Part shown: piece by piece, positions 1 to 7,797 of the stretch | How the letters are laid out: every line of letters starts with the position of its first letter | Numbering within the stretch: the stretch's first letter is position 1 | NCBI RefSeq assembly: GCF_009497155.1 | Contig: NZ_WINI01000001.1 | Location: 62,001 to 126,000, forward strand | Reading direction: 5' to 3' | Origin: Glaciimonas soli | GTDB lineage: Bacteria; Pseudomonadota; Gammaproteobacteria; Burkholderiales; Burkholderiaceae_D | DNA length: 64,000 bases | Position numbers and translations under genes: made by a program | Notes under the pieces: generated by a model | Database searches by the model: none | What the model saw: only the letters and a program-made list of their open reading frames with translations | What the model was told of the DNA's origin: nothing

Positions 1-250
1 CATGCGTAGTTGCTGGTTCGCTTTGCGCACCAGGTAACGCTGCATTAATACGCTGAGCCAGACTAGCTGACGCTTGATGATACGGCGCTTGTTTCTTGAT
101 GAAATCGCTGACTTGGTTTTGCTGCGCATACTCTTGCTGACAACTACTGCAACTGTCTAAGTGTCGCGCTAGCTCTATCGTTTCGCTCACACTCAATTCC
201 TGATCAACATAAGCTGGAATGAGTTCTAATGCTTGTTGATGATTCATCAT
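1..250 (-). CDS. Anti-sigma factor with zinc-finger (zf-HC2/ZAS), partial at left edge
   Basis: The leftward frame starts at 250 and runs off the window, giving 83 residues. Its ATG overlaps the TGA of the upstream sigma gene (ATGA), so the two are translationally coupled. Residues 30-37 read H-x3-C-x2-C, the hallmark of ZAS-type anti-sigma factors, which bind their sigma and hold it inactive. The N-terminus is cytosolic in character. Whether a membrane segment and periplasmic sensor domain follow cannot be seen. Family assignment rests on the motif and on position directly after an ECF sigma gene; the signal sensed is unknown. Confidence 0.8.
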   Translation of the reverse strand, partial: MMNHQQALELIPAYVDQELSVSETIELARHLDSCSSCQQEYAQQNQVSDFIKKQAPYHQASASLAQRINAALPGAQSEPATTH

Positions 251-897
251 AACTCCTGCCGCTTTGCTGCCACTGATACTGGCGTTGTGACACCTGAAAC
301 TCCGCTAGCAATCAGTTTTTTTGCCAATAGTTGGCGGCCGCGCCCTAAGCGTGACATCACCGTGCCAATGGGAATGTCGACGATGGCAGCGATTTGTTTG
401 TACGACAAATCTTCCAATTCTCGCAATATCATCACTTCCCGAAATTCCAACGGTAAGGTGCGCAACGCTAGCTGCAGTTGTTGTTCGCAATCCTTTTGTA
501 AGAGCAGGTTTTCCGGATCATTGTTTGCTTGCTGATGAACGTTTGCAAATTCGTTTGGATCTTCGCCTGTAGCGTTGTGATGACCGTAGCTATCGTCAGA
601 TTGTTCATCAAATAATGCCGTGTGCGCATTGCGTGTTTGCTTTTGCTCGTACCACGTGTAGAACGTATTGCGCACGATGGCGAGCAACCAGGGGCGTCCA
701 TCCTCGCCACCGTTGCTGGCATTGCTGCGATGACTGTTGAAGCTGTCAAAGAAAGTATACGCGCGCAAATAAGCCTCCTGAACCACATCCTCCGCATCCT
801 GATGGCTGCCCGTGAGCCAGCGTGCCAGGTTAAAGGCAGAGTTGAGATGCGGTAAAACGATGGCTTGGAAGCGTTCTTCTTTAGTCTGGTCGGTCAT
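247..897 (-). CDS. ECF (sigma-70 family group 4) RNA polymerase sigma factor
   Basis: An extracytoplasmic-function sigma factor of about 216 residues with only the two ECF domains. Region 2 lies near residues 16-60 (DAEDVVQEAYLRAY, then RPWLLAIVRNTFYTWY). Region 4 lies near 146-193, with the LSYKQIAAIVDIPIGTVMSR helix-turn-helix that reads the -35 element. The longest frame opens at 933, but that codon sits inside the predicted -10 element, so the true start must be downstream; ATGs at 906 and 897 are possible and 897 gives the usual ECF N-terminus. No strong Shine-Dalgarno is visible. The gene is coupled to the anti-sigma gene and divergent from a phosphoesterase/cupredoxin operon, which is its likely regulon. 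Confidence 0.88.
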   Translation of the reverse strand: MTDQTKEERFQAIVLPHLNSAFNLARWLTGSHQDAEDVVQEAYLRAYTFFDSFNSHRSNASNGGEDGRPWLLAIVRNTFYTWYEQKQTRNAHTALFDEQSDDSYGHHNATGEDPNEFANVHQQANNDPENLLLQKDCEQQLQLALRTLPLEFREVMILRELEDLSYKQIAAIVDIPIGTVMSRLGRGRQLLAKKLIASGVSGVTTPVSVAAKRQEL

Positions 898-929
898 TCT
901 GCGCATTCGACATTCGCTGTGTTTTCCTA

Positions 930-958
930 TCATACCGCCTGAGTCGATATTTTATTCC
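930..958 (-). promoter_or_regulatory. Predicted ECF-type promoter of the sigma/anti-sigma operon
   Basis: Read leftward, GGAATAAAAT (958-949) is followed after 11 bases by CGGTATGA (937-930). Counting from GGAAT, 16 bases separate it from CGGT, the usual spacing of ECF promoters (GGAA-type -35, CG-type -10). The sequence is an exact mirror of the rightward promoter at 972-1000, so both operons are probably read by the same sigma factor. Transcription would begin near 923. Confidence 0.72.
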
Positions 959-971
959 CGCAAAATTTACA

Positions 972-1000
972 GGAATAAAATTGCCGCGCTATCGGTATGA
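972..1000 (+). promoter_or_regulatory. Predicted ECF-type promoter of the phosphoesterase/cupredoxin operon
   Basis: GGAATAAAAT (972-981), 11 bases, then CGGTATGA (993-1000), identical in both boxes and in spacing to the leftward promoter. The predicted start point near 1007 lies after the first ATG of the open frame at 997 and so supports translation from 1036, where a Shine-Dalgarno AAGGAG is present at 1027-1032. Confidence 0.72.
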
Positions 1001-1035
1001 GGATTTACCGGTCATGTGATCGGACTAAGGAGAGC

Positions 1036-1965
1036 ATGATGGAAAGTACCGTACCAAATGATGCACTTTCGGCTACATTTCAATTGTCGATGAAACGCCG
1101 TAGCTTTATCAAGCTAGCTGGCTTAGGTGGGGTTGTTTATGCATCAGGCTTAAGTGGTTGGGCTGCCAATGCAAGTCCGGTTGATGATTTCTTTTTTGTC
1201 CAGTTATCCGATAGCCATTGGGGGTTTGAGGGCGCGCCTAATCCCGATGCGCGTGGCACGCTGCCAAAAGCTGTGGCAGCGGTCAATGGTTTGGAGAAAA
1301 TGCCGGACTTTATTGTTTTTACCGGTGATTTGACCCACACCACCGATGATCCGCAAGAGCGCCGTAAGAGAATGACAGAATTCAAAGCCGTCGTCGCCGA
1401 TTTGAAAGTAAAACCAGTATATTTTATGCCCGGCGAACATGATGCCGGATTGGATCGGGGCGCCGCGTATCAGGAATTTTTTGGTAAAACGCATTACACC
1501 TTCGATCACAAAGGAGTGCATTTTATTGTTCTCGATAATGTATCCGATCCCGGTGCCAGCATCGGCGATGAGCAATTGGCATGGCTGGCGGCTGATTTGG
1601 AAAAACAAACAGCCGATGCGCAGATAGTGGTCTTTACGCATCGCCCCTTATTTGATCTCTACCCGCAATGGGATTGGGCGACACGCGACGGCGCCAAGGC
1701 ATTGGCGTTGCTAATGCCGTATAAAAATGTGACGGTATTTTATGGTCATATCCATCAGGAAAACCATCATATGACCGAGCACATAGCGCATCACTCGGCC
1801 AAATCCCTGATCTTTCCATTGCCTGCGCCGGGATCACAGCCGAAACGCACACCGATAGCGTGGGACAGCGCTCAGCCATATCGCGGCTTAGGATTTCGCG
1901 AAGTCGCAACAGTGCGAAAAACGATGGAATACCAGATAACCGAATTGCCAGTGCAAAAGAGCTAA
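1036..1965 (+). CDS. Tat-exported calcineurin-like metallophosphoesterase
   Basis: A 309-residue phosphoesterase. The start at 1036 has AAGGAG four bases upstream; the frame is open from 997 but that codon precedes the predicted transcription start. A twin-arginine signal (KRRSFIK, residues 20-26, then a hydrophobic stretch ending near GWAANA) predicts folded export to the periplasm. The dinuclear-metal motifs are LSDSHWG, FTGDLTH, PGEHD, FTHRPL and YGHIHQENH. The GNHD box reads GEHD, so the usual metal-binding Asn is a Glu. The substrate is unknown. The next gene starts two bases after the stop, so the two are co-transcribed and probably under the divergent ECF sigma. Confidence 0.85.
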   Translation: MMESTVPNDALSATFQLSMKRRSFIKLAGLGGVVYASGLSGWAANASPVDDFFFVQLSDSHWGFEGAPNPDARGTLPKAVAAVNGLEKMPDFIVFTGDLTHTTDDPQERRKRMTEFKAVVADLKVKPVYFMPGEHDAGLDRGAAYQEFFGKTHYTFDHKGVHFIVLDNVSDPGASIGDEQLAWLAADLEKQTADAQIVVFTHRPLFDLYPQWDWATRDGAKALALLMPYKNVTVFYGHIHQENHHMTEHIAHHSAKSLIFPLPAPGSQPKRTPIAWDSAQPYRGLGFREVATVRKTMEYQITELPVQKS

Positions 1966-1967
1966 TC

Positions 1968-2354
1968 ATGGCTATCAATTTCCTGCCTCCCACTATTAAT
2001 AAAGAGCGTCGGCAGCTGTTGCTTGGCCTGACGGCAGTCGGATTCTGTGGCTTCGCCGTATCCGCACTGGCAGCAAGCCAAGAGCGCGTTATCAAGGTGG
2101 TTGCCAAACGATTTACTTATACGCCGGATAGGTTACTGTTGAAGCAGGGGCAATCCGTTACCTTAGAGTTAACGACGGCAGACATTCCTATGGGTTTCAA
2201 TGCGCCAGACTTTGCGGTGCGCACGGATATTTTGCCAGGTACCGTATCACGCGTGCGTTTTACGCCGGATAAAGTGGGTGAGTTTGGGTTTCATTGCGAC
2301 TTGTTTTGTGGCTCAGGACATGAGGATATGGTCGGTGTGATTGTGGTGACGTGA
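1968..2354 (+). CDS. Exported cupredoxin with Cox2-like CuA-type loop
   Basis: A 128-residue protein: a short N-terminal export signal (ERRQLLLGL, hydrophobic, cut near ALAAS) and one cupredoxin domain. The C-terminal loop HCDLFCGSGHEDM has C-x3-C-x3-H-x2-M, the spacing of the CuA site of cytochrome oxidase subunit II and N2O reductase. Aligned to Cox2, the stretch DIPMGFNAPDFAVRTDILPG matches the segment that carries the first CuA histidine, but a Met is found in its place. The protein lacks the Cox2 transmembrane hairpin, so it is not an oxidase subunit. It may be a periplasmic copper carrier, sensor or electron-transfer protein. ATG at 1968 follows the phosphoesterase stop by two bases. 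Confidence 0.82.
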   Translation: MAINFLPPTINKERRQLLLGLTAVGFCGFAVSALAASQERVIKVVAKRFTYTPDRLLLKQGQSVTLELTTADIPMGFNAPDFAVRTDILPGTVSRVRFTPDKVGEFGFHCDLFCGSGHEDMVGVIVVT

Positions 2355-2369
2355 TGCGCTAGTGCGTTT

Positions 2370-2397
2370 GTAGGGACACGATTTATCGCGTCCCTAC
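2370..2397. terminator. Hairpin between convergent operons, likely bidirectional terminator or repeat
   Basis: GTAGGGAC at 2370-2377 pairs with GTCCCTAC at 2390-2397, with a smaller CGA/TCG pairing inside. It lies between the stop of the cupredoxin gene and the stop of the convergent TonB receptor. There is no long T-run, so it may be a weak terminator or a dispersed palindromic repeat. Confidence 0.45.
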
Positions 2398-2420
2398 GAT
2401 AGAACAGTATTAATTCCTCA

Positions 2421-4652
2421 TCAAAACGCTTTCGACATCGCTACATAAAAACCACGTCGTTGCCCATATTGAGGCGCACCCACGCCAATGCCAGTGCCAT
2501 CACGGATTTCATAGACACGATCAAACAGATTTGTCACATTGAACCGGGCAGTCACTTTGCCGATAGGTGACTCTGTGAACACATGGCTGGCGCCAACATT
2601 AACTACGGTATATGCCGGTAAATGATCGGTATTTGCAAAGCCGCTACGCAAACCACTGCCAAATAAGGCATCAGTGCTGTAGGTCGTGCCGCGCCATAAA
2701 TATGACATACCCGCTGAGGCAGAGAGACGCTGATCGTGATCCAGATGTACCCAATGATTGGAGATATAGTCCAGTTCTGCCTGATCAAAGTTATATTGGC
2801 TAGAAATGATATCTTTACCCATTGCGGTAGCACGCGCCAGATTGAAATAGGCTGATAAATTATCTTTGTGATAGTTCAGGGTCAATTCAAGACCGTAGAT
2901 TTTGCCTTGAGCATAATTGAACGGGGTGTATAACAAAGCAGAGCCAAACTGACCTTCATCCAGTAAATTTTTTACTTTTTTATAGTAAGCATCCAAGCCC
3001 AAGGTCAGATGTTGCGTCAACTGCTGATTCACACCGGCATCAAAATAATCGGAGCTTTCTGCCTGCACCGCACCGTTCTGACTACTGGGCGACGCATTGG
3101 TAGTGCCATTGAAATTGGTGACGGTGGAAGCAGCGATTAACTCACTCGCGGGTGGCGTGAAGTATTTGGCATAGCCCGCATGGAAGGTGGTGCTCGGCGT
3201 CATTTGATAGACGAAGCCGATGCGTGGACTAAATTGATTCGCCTTCACATACGCATTGACCCAATCGGCACGCGCACCGTAGTTCATGGTGAGCTTGTCA
3301 GTCAATTTCCATTCATCTTGTAAGTAAACCCCGATTTGATCAGTGGTTTTTTGATCGCTTTCATTGATTGCAAAAGGCGTGGTGCTTAGCTGATTACCGT
3401 CACTATCCGCGGGGAAGGTAAGGGCATCCGTACTGTTGTTGAGAGTTTCTCGCGTATAGGCAACACCGCTGCGTATCGTGTGGCTATCATTTAATTTATA
3501 ACTTCCATCAGCTTGCAGTCCATTGGCCAAGCCAGTACGTACAACTTTGGAGGCAACGCCGGTAAACATTAAATCGCCAATGTCATCCGGATCGAATGAG
3601 GTCTTGGTATAGCGGCTGAAGGCGGCAATCTGATAATCTAATTGCGAATTGATCGAACCTTGCAAGGCAAGAATGCCATAGCGGGTAGTTTCGCGTTGAC
3701 GCTCATCCAGATCGGCTGATTGATAATCGGCTGGCGCACCGGCTAACTGATAAGTAGGTGTTTGTCCGGGAATATTGGGGATCTGAAAGCGATTATCGGA
3801 ATTGCCCAAAATCAAACTGACACGGGTATCTGGATTCAATATGTAGGAAAAATAACCAAAAGCTTTGTTTTGCAAAGTACGGTCATGTATGGCGGTTGAT
3901 GCGCCGGTGGTATTTTCGATACCGAGATCGTTGGCATCAAATGCGCCGTTGATGTAATAGCTGAAATTATCCGTGCTTCCTCTCACATCGCCAGTGATTT
4001 CTTGTGTATGGTTGCTGCCGAATTGCACGCCGATATCACCGCCATTGCCATCTTCTCCGGTTTTGGTTTGCACATTGACCACACCTGCTGTGCGATAGCC
4101 GTATTGCGCCGGCAATGCGCCTGTCAAAAAGCTGATGTTGTTGACGAAGCGGGTATCCAGGGTTTGGCCGAATCCGGAAATACTTTCCGGAAGCAAGATG
4201 CCATTCAAACGGTATTGCAAATTGGCGTGATCTCCGCGCACATGCAACTGTCCAAACGAATCTTGTGCGACGCCAGGCGCTTGTAATAGCACTTGGTTAA
4301 ATGACGTGTCATCACCTTGCGGCAGAGCGGCAATTTCTTTGGGGCCGATCCGATATATGCTGCTGCCGGTTTCAACCGAAATACTATTTCTGGCGCGATC
4401 TAAACGACCAGCGGTGACAGTGATTTGACTGATGGGTGCGGTGGTCGTAACCGGTACTGCGGCGGATGGTGCGCTATTCGCATTATTATTCGTAACATTA
4501 TTCGCACCACTGGCTGCTGGCGCATCTGTGTTGTTAACACCGATAGTCGGTTCTGTCGTAACCCCTGTCGCATCGGCATTGGCTGCAATGACGATAGTGG
4601 GCGCGTAGGCGAGCGCAATCAAGGCGCTCAGCCGTAACAAGCGTGTTTTCAT
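2421..4652 (-). CDS. TonB-dependent outer-membrane receptor
   Basis: A receptor of 743 residues counted from 4652, where GGAG precedes the ATG by nine bases and a clear signal peptide follows (MKTRLLRLSALIALAYAP, cut near VIAAN); the frame is open to 4739. After a low-complexity Asn/Ala-rich linker, a TonB-box-like ISQITVTAGRL leads into the plug domain (SFNQVLLQAPGVAQDSFGQLHVRGDHANLQYRLNG), then a 22-strand-type barrel ending in FYVAMSKAF with the terminal Phe needed for BAM insertion. It has no FecA-type signalling domain. The ligand is unclear; the nearby DUF2946-like gene, a family often found in metal-related loci, hints at copper or another metal, but this is inference. Confidence 0.85.
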   Translation of the reverse strand: MKTRLLRLSALIALAYAPTIVIAANADATGVTTEPTIGVNNTDAPAASGANNVTNNNANSAPSAAVPVTTTAPISQITVTAGRLDRARNSISVETGSSIYRIGPKEIAALPQGDDTSFNQVLLQAPGVAQDSFGQLHVRGDHANLQYRLNGILLPESISGFGQTLDTRFVNNISFLTGALPAQYGYRTAGVVNVQTKTGEDGNGGDIGVQFGSNHTQEITGDVRGSTDNFSYYINGAFDANDLGIENTTGASTAIHDRTLQNKAFGYFSYILNPDTRVSLILGNSDNRFQIPNIPGQTPTYQLAGAPADYQSADLDERQRETTRYGILALQGSINSQLDYQIAAFSRYTKTSFDPDDIGDLMFTGVASKVVRTGLANGLQADGSYKLNDSHTIRSGVAYTRETLNNSTDALTFPADSDGNQLSTTPFAINESDQKTTDQIGVYLQDEWKLTDKLTMNYGARADWVNAYVKANQFSPRIGFVYQMTPSTTFHAGYAKYFTPPASELIAASTVTNFNGTTNASPSSQNGAVQAESSDYFDAGVNQQLTQHLTLGLDAYYKKVKNLLDEGQFGSALLYTPFNYAQGKIYGLELTLNYHKDNLSAYFNLARATAMGKDIISSQYNFDQAELDYISNHWVHLDHDQRLSASAGMSYLWRGTTYSTDALFGSGLRSGFANTDHLPAYTVVNVGASHVFTESPIGKVTARFNVTNLFDRVYEIRDGTGIGVGAPQYGQRRGFYVAMSKAF

Positions 4653-4799
4653 TCTTCTAACTCCAATAAGACGGAACAAACAAGCGCAGAGCATCGAATA
4701 AGGGCAACATAACCTGATAGAAATCATTGCCATTTCCAAGTCATTGGAAAGGACATAAGTTATCCGTTGTAATCAACTTGCAATGCATAACTCATCCCC

Positions 4800-4865
4800 G
4801 TCATTCCCGCGAACGCGGGAATCCACGTTACGTTGAACATGGATTCCCGCGTTCGCGGGAATGAC
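4800..4865. repeat. Inverted pair of dRS3-like palindromic repeats (locus A)
   Basis: Two 26-base units, 4800-4825 and 4840-4865, are perfect inverted copies of each other. Each itself contains the palindrome ATTCCCGCGAACGCGGGAAT, matching the ATTCCC-N8-GGGAAT form of Neisseria dRS3 repeats. The pair would fold into a 66-base hairpin. The rest of the 315-base gap between 4653 and 4967 holds nothing I recognise. Confidence 0.8.
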
Positions 4866-4967
4866 AGTGACTTTTAAAATTGATTACGTCGATTTACTTA
4901 ACGCGCGATTTATAAAGCAGTCATGTTGCATTATTTAACGCGATCTTAGCTCGCTTCAATATGCAAT

Positions 4968-5318
4968 TTAAGTAATCTGGAAAGGAGAAGATAATGACGG
5001 CGGCGCTTGTGCCAGAGGGGTCAGATAGTGAGACGGCGGGAGCAGCAGGAAATAAATCGCCTCAATTGCAACTGGATAGACAAAAACCAATGCGGCAGTT
5101 GGCGCCACCACCGGCGGGGTGGGCGTAGGTGAGGGCAGGTTAGCCGCTAACGAGCAGGCAGCACAATCATCCGATTTTTCAGTTAAGCCATGGTTATGAA
5201 AAGCGGCGGCGACCAACTGAATCACCAGTATGGACAGCACTAACCAGAACGCGAACTGACGCCAGCGTATCTTGCGATTTCGCTTTGAGCTGTACGTGTC
5301 GTTAATGATTAGCTGCAT
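4968..5318 (-). CDS. Small DUF2946-like membrane-anchored protein
   Basis: A 116-residue protein with basic N-terminus, one hydrophobic segment near residues 22-40 (FAFWLVLSILVIQLVAAAF), then HNHG and a CAAC pair followed by a proline/threonine-rich stretch, and a second hydrophobic segment near 75-95. The H...C-x2-C plus proline-rich layout resembles the poorly characterised DUF2946 family. It lies upstream of, and in the same direction as, the TonB receptor, with the palindromic repeat between them, so co-transcription is possible. Function unknown; a metal-binding role is only suggested by the Cys/His residues. Confidence 0.6.
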   Translation of the reverse strand: MQLIINDTYSSKRNRKIRWRQFAFWLVLSILVIQLVAAAFHNHGLTEKSDDCAACSLAANLPSPTPTPPVVAPTAALVFVYPVAIEAIYFLLLPPSHYLTPLAQAPPSLSSPFQIT

Positions 5319-5466
5319 ACGGAAACTTGATTGTGGGAAACGCTAAATGCAATTGAGTTGCATAGTCTAATCGTGTTTATGTACGATTAGCAATAAAAAG
5401 AAAAAATTATGTCGTTTTTCTTATTGCTTTTTTTGTTCATTATTTATCAATGTTTTTCTTGCCTGT

Positions 5467-5491
5467 GAATAATGAAATATTCAAGGATAAT
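5467..5491 (+). promoter_or_regulatory. AT-rich control region of siderophore receptor, possible Fur-like site
   Basis: The 214-base gap 5319-5532 is strongly AT-rich. GAATA at 5467 and TATTC ending at 5482 form a short inverted repeat overlapping GATAAT at 5486-5491, a reasonable -10 element. Iron repression of such receptors is common, but the match to the 19-base Fur consensus is partial and the call is weak. Confidence 0.25.
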
Positions 5492-5532
5492 GCGAGCCCT
5501 CAGTAATTTGCTTTGGTCACGCCCAAATTCGC

Positions 5533-7797
5533 ATGAAAAACAAAAAACACAATAAAACTCAACGTAAAACCCAGCAGTTGTTAACCTTACTATTTGTTGC
5601 TGGCACGGCCGCCGCAAGTTCATATGCGGAAGATGCCAATATGACTGGTTCTGCGCCCGATACAGTGACAAGCGCTAACGGAAATGTCGCCGCGACTCCT
5701 GAGCAGCATCGCACCTTGCCGATAGTGACCGTCACCGGCAGCGCACCCATCCGCGGCAGCTATGGCGCAACATCCTCAGCCGTGAGTAGTTTTGGCGATA
5801 CGCCTTTGCTGGATACGCCGGCGTCGATTTCTGTGATGACACGTAATTTGATGAATGATCAACAATCGCGCTTGTTGACGGATGTGACGAAAAATGACGC
5901 GTCGATTGACGACAATTACGCACCATTGGGCTATTACGAAAATGTCAGCATCCGTGGCTTCCCGTTGGACCTGGCATCGAGCTATCAGTTGGACGGCATG
6001 ACAATTTCGGGTGAGCAAAACGTTGCGCTGGAAAACAAAGAACGGGTCGAAGTATTGAAAGGCCTGGCCGGTTTGCAAACGGGTATGGGGGCAGCCGGCG
6101 GCTTGATTAATTACGTCAGCAAACGTCCTGCCGATGTGCGCTCTATCACATTGGGGACCGATTCGCGTGGCTCGCGTTATCTGGCGGCGGATATCGGCAC
6201 GATATTTGGTGACCAAAATCAATTTGGGATTCGTGTCAATGCGGCGCATGAAGGCATTAATACCTATGTGCACGGCGCCGACGGCAATCGGAATTTCGGT
6301 TCGCTGGCAGCAGATTGGAAAATTTCTCCGTCTGCAAAGTTGGAATTCAATATTGAAGATCAACATCGTCAACAACGTTCTGTGCCGGGCTATCAATTGT
6401 TGGGTGGAACGACGCTTCCGACCAATGTTTCGCCATCGACTCTATTGGGCGGTCAAAGCTGGGCCAAGCCGGTGACGATAGATGCGCTCAATACCAATCT
6501 GCGTCTGGATGTCGATCTGAATGCTGATTGGCATACTTATCTGATGGCGAGCCGCAGTAAAGTGGTAATAGATGACAATGTAGCGTTTCCGTATGGTTGC
6601 TATTACGTTACCAGTTGCATCAACGGTGACAGCCCCGGTCAATATTTCAGCCCTAGCGGTGAATATGATATTTACGATTATCGCTTCCCAAAAGACACGC
6701 GCATCAATGATCAAGTGCAAGCAGTGTTGCAAGGGAAGTTCAGTACCGCACAGATCGTGCATGATCTGACAGTCGGTGTCAGTAGTTTTCGCCGTTATAT
6801 TGCGCAGACTGATGGTGTCAGTGAGTATGTCGGCAGCGATAATATTTACAACCCAAATCCGATTGCTTTTCCGCCTTCACCTGATCAGCCTGGCGCATTT
6901 TATAAGCGCCTGGATAGTCGTCAGCAAGGATTGTTTGCGGTCGATCGCATCAGTTTGAGCGACAGCTGGCAAGTAGTCGCGGGAGCGCGTCAGGTTTGGC
7001 TGAGAGAACAAGCATTCGATATCACTGGCGCTGCGACACGCACCACCGATAAATCGCTATTACTGCCGCAAGTCGCTCTGTTATTTAAACCGCAAGCGGC
7101 GATGACTTTGTATACCAGCTATAGCAAGGGTCTGACCATGGGTGGTCAGGCGCCAGCCTGGGCAGACAATGCCAACATTTTCCTGGCGCCGACTGTGTCG
7201 CGTCAAATCGAAGCGGGTATCAAATATGATGTCAGCAGCAAGCTAATGATTACCGGCGCACTGTTTCAGATGACCAAGCCGTATGAATATCCTAAGCCAG
7301 ACGGCGCAGGTGGGTTTGAATATGTGCAAGAAGGAACGCAAACAAATCGCGGTCTTGAGTTGAGTGCAGCAGGGCAGGCTAGCAGTCAATTGCGCTTAAC
7401 TGCCAGCATCAGTGCCATTCAGGCAATCGCCAACGATACTGGTACGGCGTCATATGACGGTCATCAAGCCATCAATGTGCCACGCATAAAGGCAACTGTG
7501 TATGCTGACTATGCGATACAGCAGATTGCCGGTTTGAGCTTGTTGGGTGGCTGGGAATATAGTGCGAGTAAAGCTGCCACGCGCGAAGGTAATGTCGATA
7601 TACCGGCTTACTATTTGTTTAATGCAGGTTCACGTTATACCACCACGTTGGCGGGGCACAATGTCGTGCTGCGGTTGAGCATAGACAATCTCTTGAATAA
7701 GCAATATTGGAAAGATTCGGGAGAGTTCTTGGGTGACAGTTATATTCACTTGGGGGCACCGCGGACCGCACGGTTATCGATGCAATATGATTTCTAA
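5533..7797 (+). CDS. TonB-dependent siderophore receptor (FhuA/FpvA-type)
   Basis: A 754-residue ferric-siderophore receptor. It has a signal peptide (basic MKNKKHNKTQRK, hydrophobic LLTLLFVAGTAAA, cut near SYAED), a TonB box near LPIVTVTGSAP, and the siderophore-type plug (TPASISVMTRNLMNDQ, YYENVSIRGFPLD, RVEVLKGLAGLQTGMGAAGGLINYVSKRP). The barrel ends with the family signature APRTARLSMQYDF. No N-terminal FecR-interacting domain is present. No Shine-Dalgarno is obvious before the ATG. The next gene, a kinase-like protein, starts 24 bases after the stop, suggesting a two-gene unit. The siderophore cannot be told from the sequence. Confidence 0.9.
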   Translation: MKNKKHNKTQRKTQQLLTLLFVAGTAAASSYAEDANMTGSAPDTVTSANGNVAATPEQHRTLPIVTVTGSAPIRGSYGATSSAVSSFGDTPLLDTPASISVMTRNLMNDQQSRLLTDVTKNDASIDDNYAPLGYYENVSIRGFPLDLASSYQLDGMTISGEQNVALENKERVEVLKGLAGLQTGMGAAGGLINYVSKRPADVRSITLGTDSRGSRYLAADIGTIFGDQNQFGIRVNAAHEGINTYVHGADGNRNFGSLAADWKISPSAKLEFNIEDQHRQQRSVPGYQLLGGTTLPTNVSPSTLLGGQSWAKPVTIDALNTNLRLDVDLNADWHTYLMASRSKVVIDDNVAFPYGCYYVTSCINGDSPGQYFSPSGEYDIYDYRFPKDTRINDQVQAVLQGKFSTAQIVHDLTVGVSSFRRYIAQTDGVSEYVGSDNIYNPNPIAFPPSPDQPGAFYKRLDSRQQGLFAVDRISLSDSWQVVAGARQVWLREQAFDITGAATRTTDKSLLLPQVALLFKPQAAMTLYTSYSKGLTMGGQAPAWADNANIFLAPTVSRQIEAGIKYDVSSKLMITGALFQMTKPYEYPKPDGAGGFEYVQEGTQTNRGLELSAAGQASSQLRLTASISAIQAIANDTGTASYDGHQAINVPRIKATVYADYAIQQIAGLSLLGGWEYSASKAATREGNVDIPAYYLFNAGSRYTTTLAGHNVVLRLSIDNLLNKQYWKDSGEFLGDSYIHLGAPRTARLSMQYDF

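Follow-up and report, generated by a model that had tools for sequence, protein, structure and literature searches.

In the 64,000 nucleotides of Glaciimonas soli DNA analysed here (the window), the genes for an ECF sigma factor and its anti-sigma factor very probably form a self-contained switch, in which one sigma factor would read two back-to-back promoters. The system is ordinary in kind and well supported: its kind is already known and its details are new, the new detail being a candidate 5'-terminal hairpin in the effector mRNA, whose distance from the -10 box is constant over 17 loci. The boxes, the genes, their geometry and their conservation are read directly off the sequences. In the mechanism proposed from them, the membrane-bound anti-sigma factor, with its zinc-finger N-terminus, one hydrophobic segment and a presumed periplasmic C-terminus, would bind the sigma factor until an envelope signal releases it, and the freed sigma factor would then read two back-to-back promoters of the form GGAATAA-N16-GTxT. 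The sigma-side promoter would remake sigma and anti-sigma, providing autoregulation with the inhibitor as a brake in the same operon; the effector-side promoter would yield a Tat-exported metallophosphoesterase and a CuA-like cupredoxin, preceded in some relatives by a cytochrome c. The module may act in redox, metal or sulfur stress of the periplasm.

Genes and twin promoter sites of the locus

The sigma factor matches the Pfam domains Sigma70_r2 (1.9e-10), Sigma70_r4_2 (2.3e-14) and Sigma70_r4 (2.5e-8) and no other sigma domain in Pfam, so that regions 2 and 4 of sigma-70 are present alone, as in ECF (group 4) factors. It passes the cut-off of TIGR02937 (sigma70-ECF), and its top NCBIfam model is NF009185 (PRK12533), matched with 221.7 bits, below that model's cut-off of 248. 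As is also typical of group 4, the sigma gene adjoins that of a cognate anti-sigma factor, in what is putatively a shared operon (Table 1). The latter gene starts at position 250 and exits the window on the left (L003:6429-7250); its product has 273 residues, with the hydrophobic segment at residues 109-127 and a C-terminus that finds no match in Pfam.

Table 1. Features of the sigma/effector locus in window coordinates.
Feature	Positions	Strand	Details
Anti-sigma gene, first part	1-250	-	overlaps sigma stop codon; zf-HC2, one hydrophobic segment
ECF sigma factor gene	247-897	-	Sigma70_r2, Sigma70_r4_2; likely start 897 or 906
Sigma-directed promoter	930-958	-	-35 GGAATAAAAT (949-958), -10 CGGTATGA (930-937)
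Spacer separating both -35 boxes	959-971		13 bases, A+T-rich; CGCAAAATTTACA
Effector-directed promoter	972-1000	+	-35 GGAATAAAAT (972-981), -10 CGGTATGA (993-1000)
Inverted repeat CCGGTC-ATGT-GATCGG, CCGGTCATGTGATCGG	1008-1023	+	predicted effector mRNA 5' end; candidate 5' hairpin or dimeric operator
Metallophosphoesterase, Tat-type signal KRRSFIK	1039-1965	+	PF00149
CuA-like cupredoxin, exported, CDLFCGSGHEDM	1968-2354	+	PF13473, PF00116

On the effector side, residues R21, R22 and F24 of the Tat signal are unchanged across 14 aligned phosphoesterase sequences, all of which read GEHD; the usual form in the metallophosphoesterase fold is GNHD. In the cupredoxin, C110, C114, H118 and M121 (CxxxCxxxHxxM) are invariant in 14 of 14 aligned sequences, and the upstream CuA histidine position is His in seven and Met in seven, Glaciimonas soli having Met. 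The gene that comes next, on the minus strand, encodes a TonB receptor, which among the matches listed from 20 stretches has relatives only in the same genus (L091-L094). Near this gene, at 4797-4870, lies a long inverted repeat (GTCATTCCCGCGAACGCGGGAATCCA ... TGGATTCCCGCGTTCGCGGGAATGAC) that by eye resembles the REP type.

The two promoters are 29-base sites of the form GGAATAAAAT-N11-CGGTATGA, with exact boxes on each strand; boxes, spacing and the 13 bases between the -35 boxes are all as the first-pass annotation had described them. Searched with up to 3 mismatches, the window contains these two sites alone (0.07 expected), and the genome scan which that annotation had recommended returns two exact matches, with no third copy in the whole 4.27 Mb and none for the reversed-pattern control. 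The spacer is possibly an UP-like element shared by both promoters; over 70 pairs, the A+T content of the inter-box gap averages 56%, versus 46% in the sequence downstream of each -10 box (Wilcoxon p 4e-6). Two holoenzymes side by side are probably not feasible on a gap of 13 bases, so that the promoters may compete. Scanning positions 1-2500 for sigma-70-type promoters and terminators returned nothing above shuffles.

The printed promoters of Sinorhizobium meliloti rpoE1 and rpoE4 stop 8 nt past GTCT in Table 1 of PMC6180224, an end that is read as the start point. Carrying over this distance, the predicted transcription starts would be about 924 (-) on the sigma side and about 1006 (+) on the effector side, both downstream of the first ATG in the respective frame. 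These ATGs, at 933 in the sigma frame and 997 in the phosphoesterase frame, each fall within the -10 region of their own promoter; the earlier correction of both gene starts, by which the first ATG lay upstream of or inside the promoter, is thus borne out, with both inside. The sigma gene likely starts at 897 (or 906) and the phosphoesterase gene at 1039 (or 1036), with the ribosome-binding site AAGGAG at 1027. Among 24 other family loci, 16 have a sigma alignment that opens between residues 11 and 13 of the long reading; the ATG at 897 corresponds to its residue 13.

Conservation of the sites and the sigma factor that reads them

The phosphoesterase is present in 33 of 195 sampled genomes of the family, Glaciimonas soli counted. 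Thirty family loci were taken, 25 of them including the 5' end of the sigma gene and 5 without it, and in all 25 both strands carry boxes. The family search demanded GGAATA, and the box letters are thus partly conserved by construction, the -10 letters and their distance being free; GT is found at the identical position in 49 of 50 family sites (the plus-strand site of L010 was assigned by eye, and a matrix search later recovered the same site). Throughout the family loci, the spacing from box to -10 is near-constant and the gap between the boxes variable. The pattern GGGAATAAA-N13-CGGTMT has 22 sites in 17 of 190 genomes and none in the reversed control; with a spacer one base shorter it has 2, as does its control. 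By position or gene content, in some cases only via the distance to a phosphoesterase match, 19 of the 22 sites are placed at the sigma locus or a sigma copy. L076 has its site at a sigma/anti-sigma copy beside which no phosphoesterase was recognised, and around the sites in L070, L084 and L085 no relatives of sigma or effectors were found within 8-11 kb. A second sigma/anti-sigma copy with a promoter site was also seen in L106 (~4700-5600, genome G142), with no recognised phosphoesterase adjoining; there an altered remnant of the effector-side promoter seems to be retained.

The 50 family sites gave a matrix that was used as it stood, with a threshold of 12 bits, on 68 named loci; these are the best 80 of 363 relatives, minus 12 in which sampled 60-mers coincided with those of family loci. 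The genes are divergent in 56 of these, lie on one strand in the order effectors, sigma, anti-sigma in 8, and show other layouts in 4. Sigma-side sites occur in 52 of the 56 divergent loci (4 misses), effector-side sites in 41 (15 misses), both in 39 and neither in 2 (L151, L154); when the letters of each locus are shuffled 20 times, the averages are 0.1, 0.0 and 0.0 for sigma-side, effector-side and both. Where the sigma gene follows the effectors on their own strand, the sigma-side site is absent from all 8 loci, and none is found directly before the relocated sigma gene either; the difference from 52 of 56 has a Fisher p of 1e-7 if loci are treated as independent, the eight being partly related (L173/L177 and L143/L149 resemble close pairs). 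A strong effector-side site is kept in seven of the eight, that of L168 being weak (12.1). In L162 the effector site, at 4006, lies ahead of its open frame and barely within the aligned stretch. In L169 and L190 sigma and effectors are separated and each gene is preceded by boxes; L153 has the sigma-side site alone, and no sigma gene was detected within the 5.4-kb stretch of L175.

Plasmids carry the genes as well. Sigma and phosphoesterase are divergent on one from Cupriavidus campinensis, with sites on both sides (21.7 and 22.8), and on one from Caballeronia, with sites of 20.4 and a weak 10.4; on a Burkholderia stagnalis plasmid (L200) they lie apart, with a site for each (16.9 and 21.8). 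A plasmid of Gemmatirosa, from another phylum, has divergent genes with a sigma-side site (13.0), and neither an effector-side site nor a cupredoxin match; on a Streptomyces plasmid the phosphoesterase adjoins a cupredoxin gene, and neither sites nor a sigma match were found. Two further arrangements were seen in passing. On a Janthinobacterium plasmid (L205:2900-4001), a related sigma gene preceded by a site of 21.5 is divergent from genes for a cytochrome c and a cupredoxin, which have a site of 14.1; no phosphoesterase is annotated there. In the lineage of L101, sigma, anti-sigma, cytochrome c, phosphoesterase and cupredoxin are all encoded on one strand; one pair of boxes lies upstream, and another, which looks degenerate, is close to genes for small lipoprotein-like products (L101:3400-3800 and 4580-4680).

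Three of these observations argue that, as the first-pass annotation had suggested, one sigma factor would read both promoters: the distance from box to -10 is kept while the gap between boxes varies, the boxes stay with their genes, and the sigma-side box is absent where sigma sits behind the effectors. The first of them also bears on the possibility that the inverted GGAATAAAAT boxes are the operator of a dimeric regulator rather than two promoters, as might be suggested by the perfect inversion of one box against the other between divergent genes. In 73 site pairs collected at a laxer 10 bits, however, the inter-box gap spans 8 to 110 bases (median 27), which is useless to a rigid dimer, and the box-to-minus-10 distance is near constant; moreover, lone boxes occur where one promoter suffices, and promoters of the same form are already published. 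A dimer operator is thus highly improbable. Within the genus, the gap is 13 in Glaciimonas soli and 41-44 in four congeners (L008-L011). All 18 box letters agree between the two sides in just one of the 73 pairs, that of Glaciimonas soli, and full box identity is a trait particular to this genome; 19 pairs share the four -10 letters GTxT. The sigma side mostly has GTCT (31) or GTAT (24), and the effector side GTAT (37), GTTT (11) or GTTA (8). Helical phasing of the two boxes, tried over the 73 pairs with periods of 10.0, 10.5 and 11.0 bp (Rayleigh p 0.87, 0.21 and 0.012), is unconvincing after three tries.

The sites could also be genuine ECF promoters that another sigma factor of the cell reads wholly or partly, given that the genome holds 10 other loci with sigma-70 region 2. 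When about 3 kb at each of the 11 such loci was searched, the sites of the sigma locus described here scored 19.9 and 25.9 bits, and the next-best, near an RpoE-like gene, 12.6; no other locus thus has a comparably strong promoter of this type, and from genome to genome the sites track this sigma gene. Cross-talk of this kind is therefore unlikely, and reading by the locus's own sigma factor remains the preferred explanation.

Extent of the regulon and the repeat behind the effector promoter

With up to 3 mismatches, the Glaciimonas soli genome contains three further sites, all with 3 mismatches, versus four in the reversed control. The looser core GGAATAA-N14-CGGTHT, with at most 1 mismatch, has 33 matches versus 18 in the control. 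Among the 28 of 31 extra core matches inspected (L039-L066), 22 overlap an open frame of at least 60 residues, some of which may be spurious, 2 more lie inside long frames, and 4 are clear of open frames (L041, L046, L059, L063). L041 precedes a metallo-beta-lactamase-fold gene and L046 a TonB receptor gene (both named by eye); as further targets they are weaker candidates, and unlikely ones. No gene start was found downstream of L059. L043, whose letters are close to those of a relative's promoter, coincides in part with the start of a gene that by eye is motA-like. The motif had been offered as a means of finding the whole regulon; in its strict form it is too specific for this, its 18-base identity being confined to one pair in 73, and in Glaciimonas soli the regulon seems to be just the two back-to-back promoters.

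Elsewhere the regulon may be wider. The 68 named loci have 23 sites outside the expected places, one of which is L162's own effector site, and several precede genes of apparently exported proteins. Such off-place sites are found before DsrE-like genes (L190, and L124, where the match is below the Pfam cut-off), a gene for a beta-propeller with a cupredoxin domain (L153; the neighbour in L170 looks similar), a HiPIP gene (L135), genes for HAD-family and TPR proteins (L174) and a cytochrome c gene (L171, by eye). L175 has five promoter-like sites within 3 kb (900-3910), three before CzcE-like genes, one before the phosphoesterase and one elsewhere; of the three CzcE-like products, both that were scanned matched Pfam and the third was named by eye. 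Other off-place sites, such as those of L131, L136, L145, L146, L160, L165 and L187, are chance-like or ambiguous. The common theme of these targets would be periplasmic redox, metal or sulfur.

The inverted repeat that follows the effector promoter might, with the arguments nearly in balance, be a second control point, either as a hairpin at the mRNA 5' end or as the operator of an unknown repressor; the effector operon would then differ from the sigma operon, in addition to the switch. In 17 loci the best repeat (score at least 8) is centred exactly 17 nt past the four -10 letters, which puts its start at about +2 of the effector mRNA; other positions account for at most 5 loci. In 21 sequences, which were picked for forming the repeat, so that the counts are biased in its favour, 85% of cells are paired and covariation is 0.225 versus 0.129, values that none of 500 shuffles reaches; both sides are altered in 4 of 7 pairs and in 9 cells (matched by 8 and 0 of 500 shuffles). 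L115 is the most informative row, with GGTC/GACC pairing in place of GATC/GATC. Further pair types, however, are ordinary (208 of 500 shuffles), and in 11 of the 21 the two outermost bases do not pair. In 28-mer leaders a local hairpin forms in 19 of 19, at -0.6 to -8.6 kcal/mol (weakest in L113, -0.6), but 75-nt folds keep it in only 15 of 19 and lose it in four (L007, L011, L113, L137); Glaciimonas soli is among the latter, its 5' arm pairing with the start-codon region instead (-13.6 kcal/mol, z -3.6). TGATCG is found in only 18 of 75 loci, and a palindromic operator would give a pattern similar to that of a hairpin. Tried as a possible genome-wide operator, the palindrome CCGRTCA-NN-TGATCGG has five places with at most 1 mismatch (seven strand matches), the repeat described here included, versus one in the reversed control, and no regulon is claimed for it.

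Relation to known systems

The ECF26 promoter consensus is -35 GGAATA and -10 GT (PMC6180224), and both sites carry it, with a spacing equal to that of rpoE1 and rpoE4 of S. meliloti. The resemblance extends to autoregulation, predicted in Glaciimonas, and to a downstream anti-sigma gene whose product has an N-terminal anti-sigma domain, a membrane segment and a periplasmic C-terminus, presumed in Glaciimonas (PMC6180224 and PMC3511301), as well as to a small regulon with redox proteins, which in S. meliloti are the SorT sulfite dehydrogenase, a cytochrome c and a pseudoazurin (PMC3511301). According to PMC3511301 and PMC6527743, RpoE4 drives the genes for these three proteins, and RpoE1 and RpoE4 answer sulfite, a response reported for these two and no trait of the ECF26 group as a whole. 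The Glaciimonas output differs, consisting of the metallophosphoesterase and the CuA-like cupredoxin, without a sulfite dehydrogenase. This likeness to published ECF26 promoters provides an experimental parallel for reading of the sites by a sigma factor.

With the matrix, 5 of 10 published ECF26-linked promoters of S. meliloti score 21.2 (rpoE1), 14.7, 14.4, 12.2 and 11.2 (rpoE4); the other five are low (SMc02156 5.0, SMa0148 3.7, ecfR6 1.4, SMa0139 -3.6, sorT -6.7), and ECF15, RpoD-like and RpoH2-like promoters of the same organism score -4.8, -12.4 and -22.3. In a tree of the sigma factors, built from 33 named sequences minus L137 and L160 (which have a stop in the translated range), RpoE6, the single ECF26 reference compared, lies on a long branch outside a clade of 24 rows (support 97/99); it is 32% identical to the sigma factor. 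Anti-sigma factors of the ECF26 group have a C-terminus of COG5662 / RsiW-like type; a tblastn search of the anti-sigma C-terminus against a 20-kb stretch of pSymA with rpoE6 gave no significant match. The locus is accordingly termed ECF26-like in promoter and layout and is a candidate member of the group. The low-scoring published promoters and the position of RpoE6 count against the switch, as do the effector-side and sigma-side misses and the excess of core-pattern matches.

Bacillus subtilis UpsH, under SigM, is likewise a metallophosphoesterase-like envelope enzyme controlled by an ECF sigma factor; sigma factor, neighbourhood and phylum are different, and the enzymes are likened by description (PMC11898649). 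By profile, the nearest solved relatives of the phosphoesterase are Rv0805-type phosphodiesterases, which are distant (E ~1e-8); unlike these, the Glaciimonas enzyme is predicted to be exported and has the GEHD form. In titles and abstract openings of the literature on sigma factors with metallophosphoesterases and/or cupredoxins, subscription journals and supplements aside, the module is not described, and the available portions of PMC9045368, PMC3420878 and PMC8999054 contain nothing bearing on the Glaciimonas locus.

Tentatively, and with more doubt than attaches to the repeat, the locus might represent an undescribed envelope-stress module that is widespread in Betaproteobacteria. An ECF26-like sigma factor would make a periplasmic electron-transfer set (the Tat metallophosphoesterase and CuA-like cupredoxin and, in some species, cytochrome c, HiPIP, DsrE-like or CzcE proteins), phosphoesterase and redox chain jointly countering a redox-active metal or sulfur toxicant; in one clade, a 5'-terminal mRNA hairpin would further set effector output apart from sigma autoregulation. 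The sigma switch, whose two promoters stand back to back and whose regulon is very small, is a clean and cheap test case, and its promoter matrix is usable across genera. It also links a widespread, uncharacterised pair of exported phosphoesterase and cupredoxin to a promoter class with sulfite-answering members, which suggests a testable signal for the switch.
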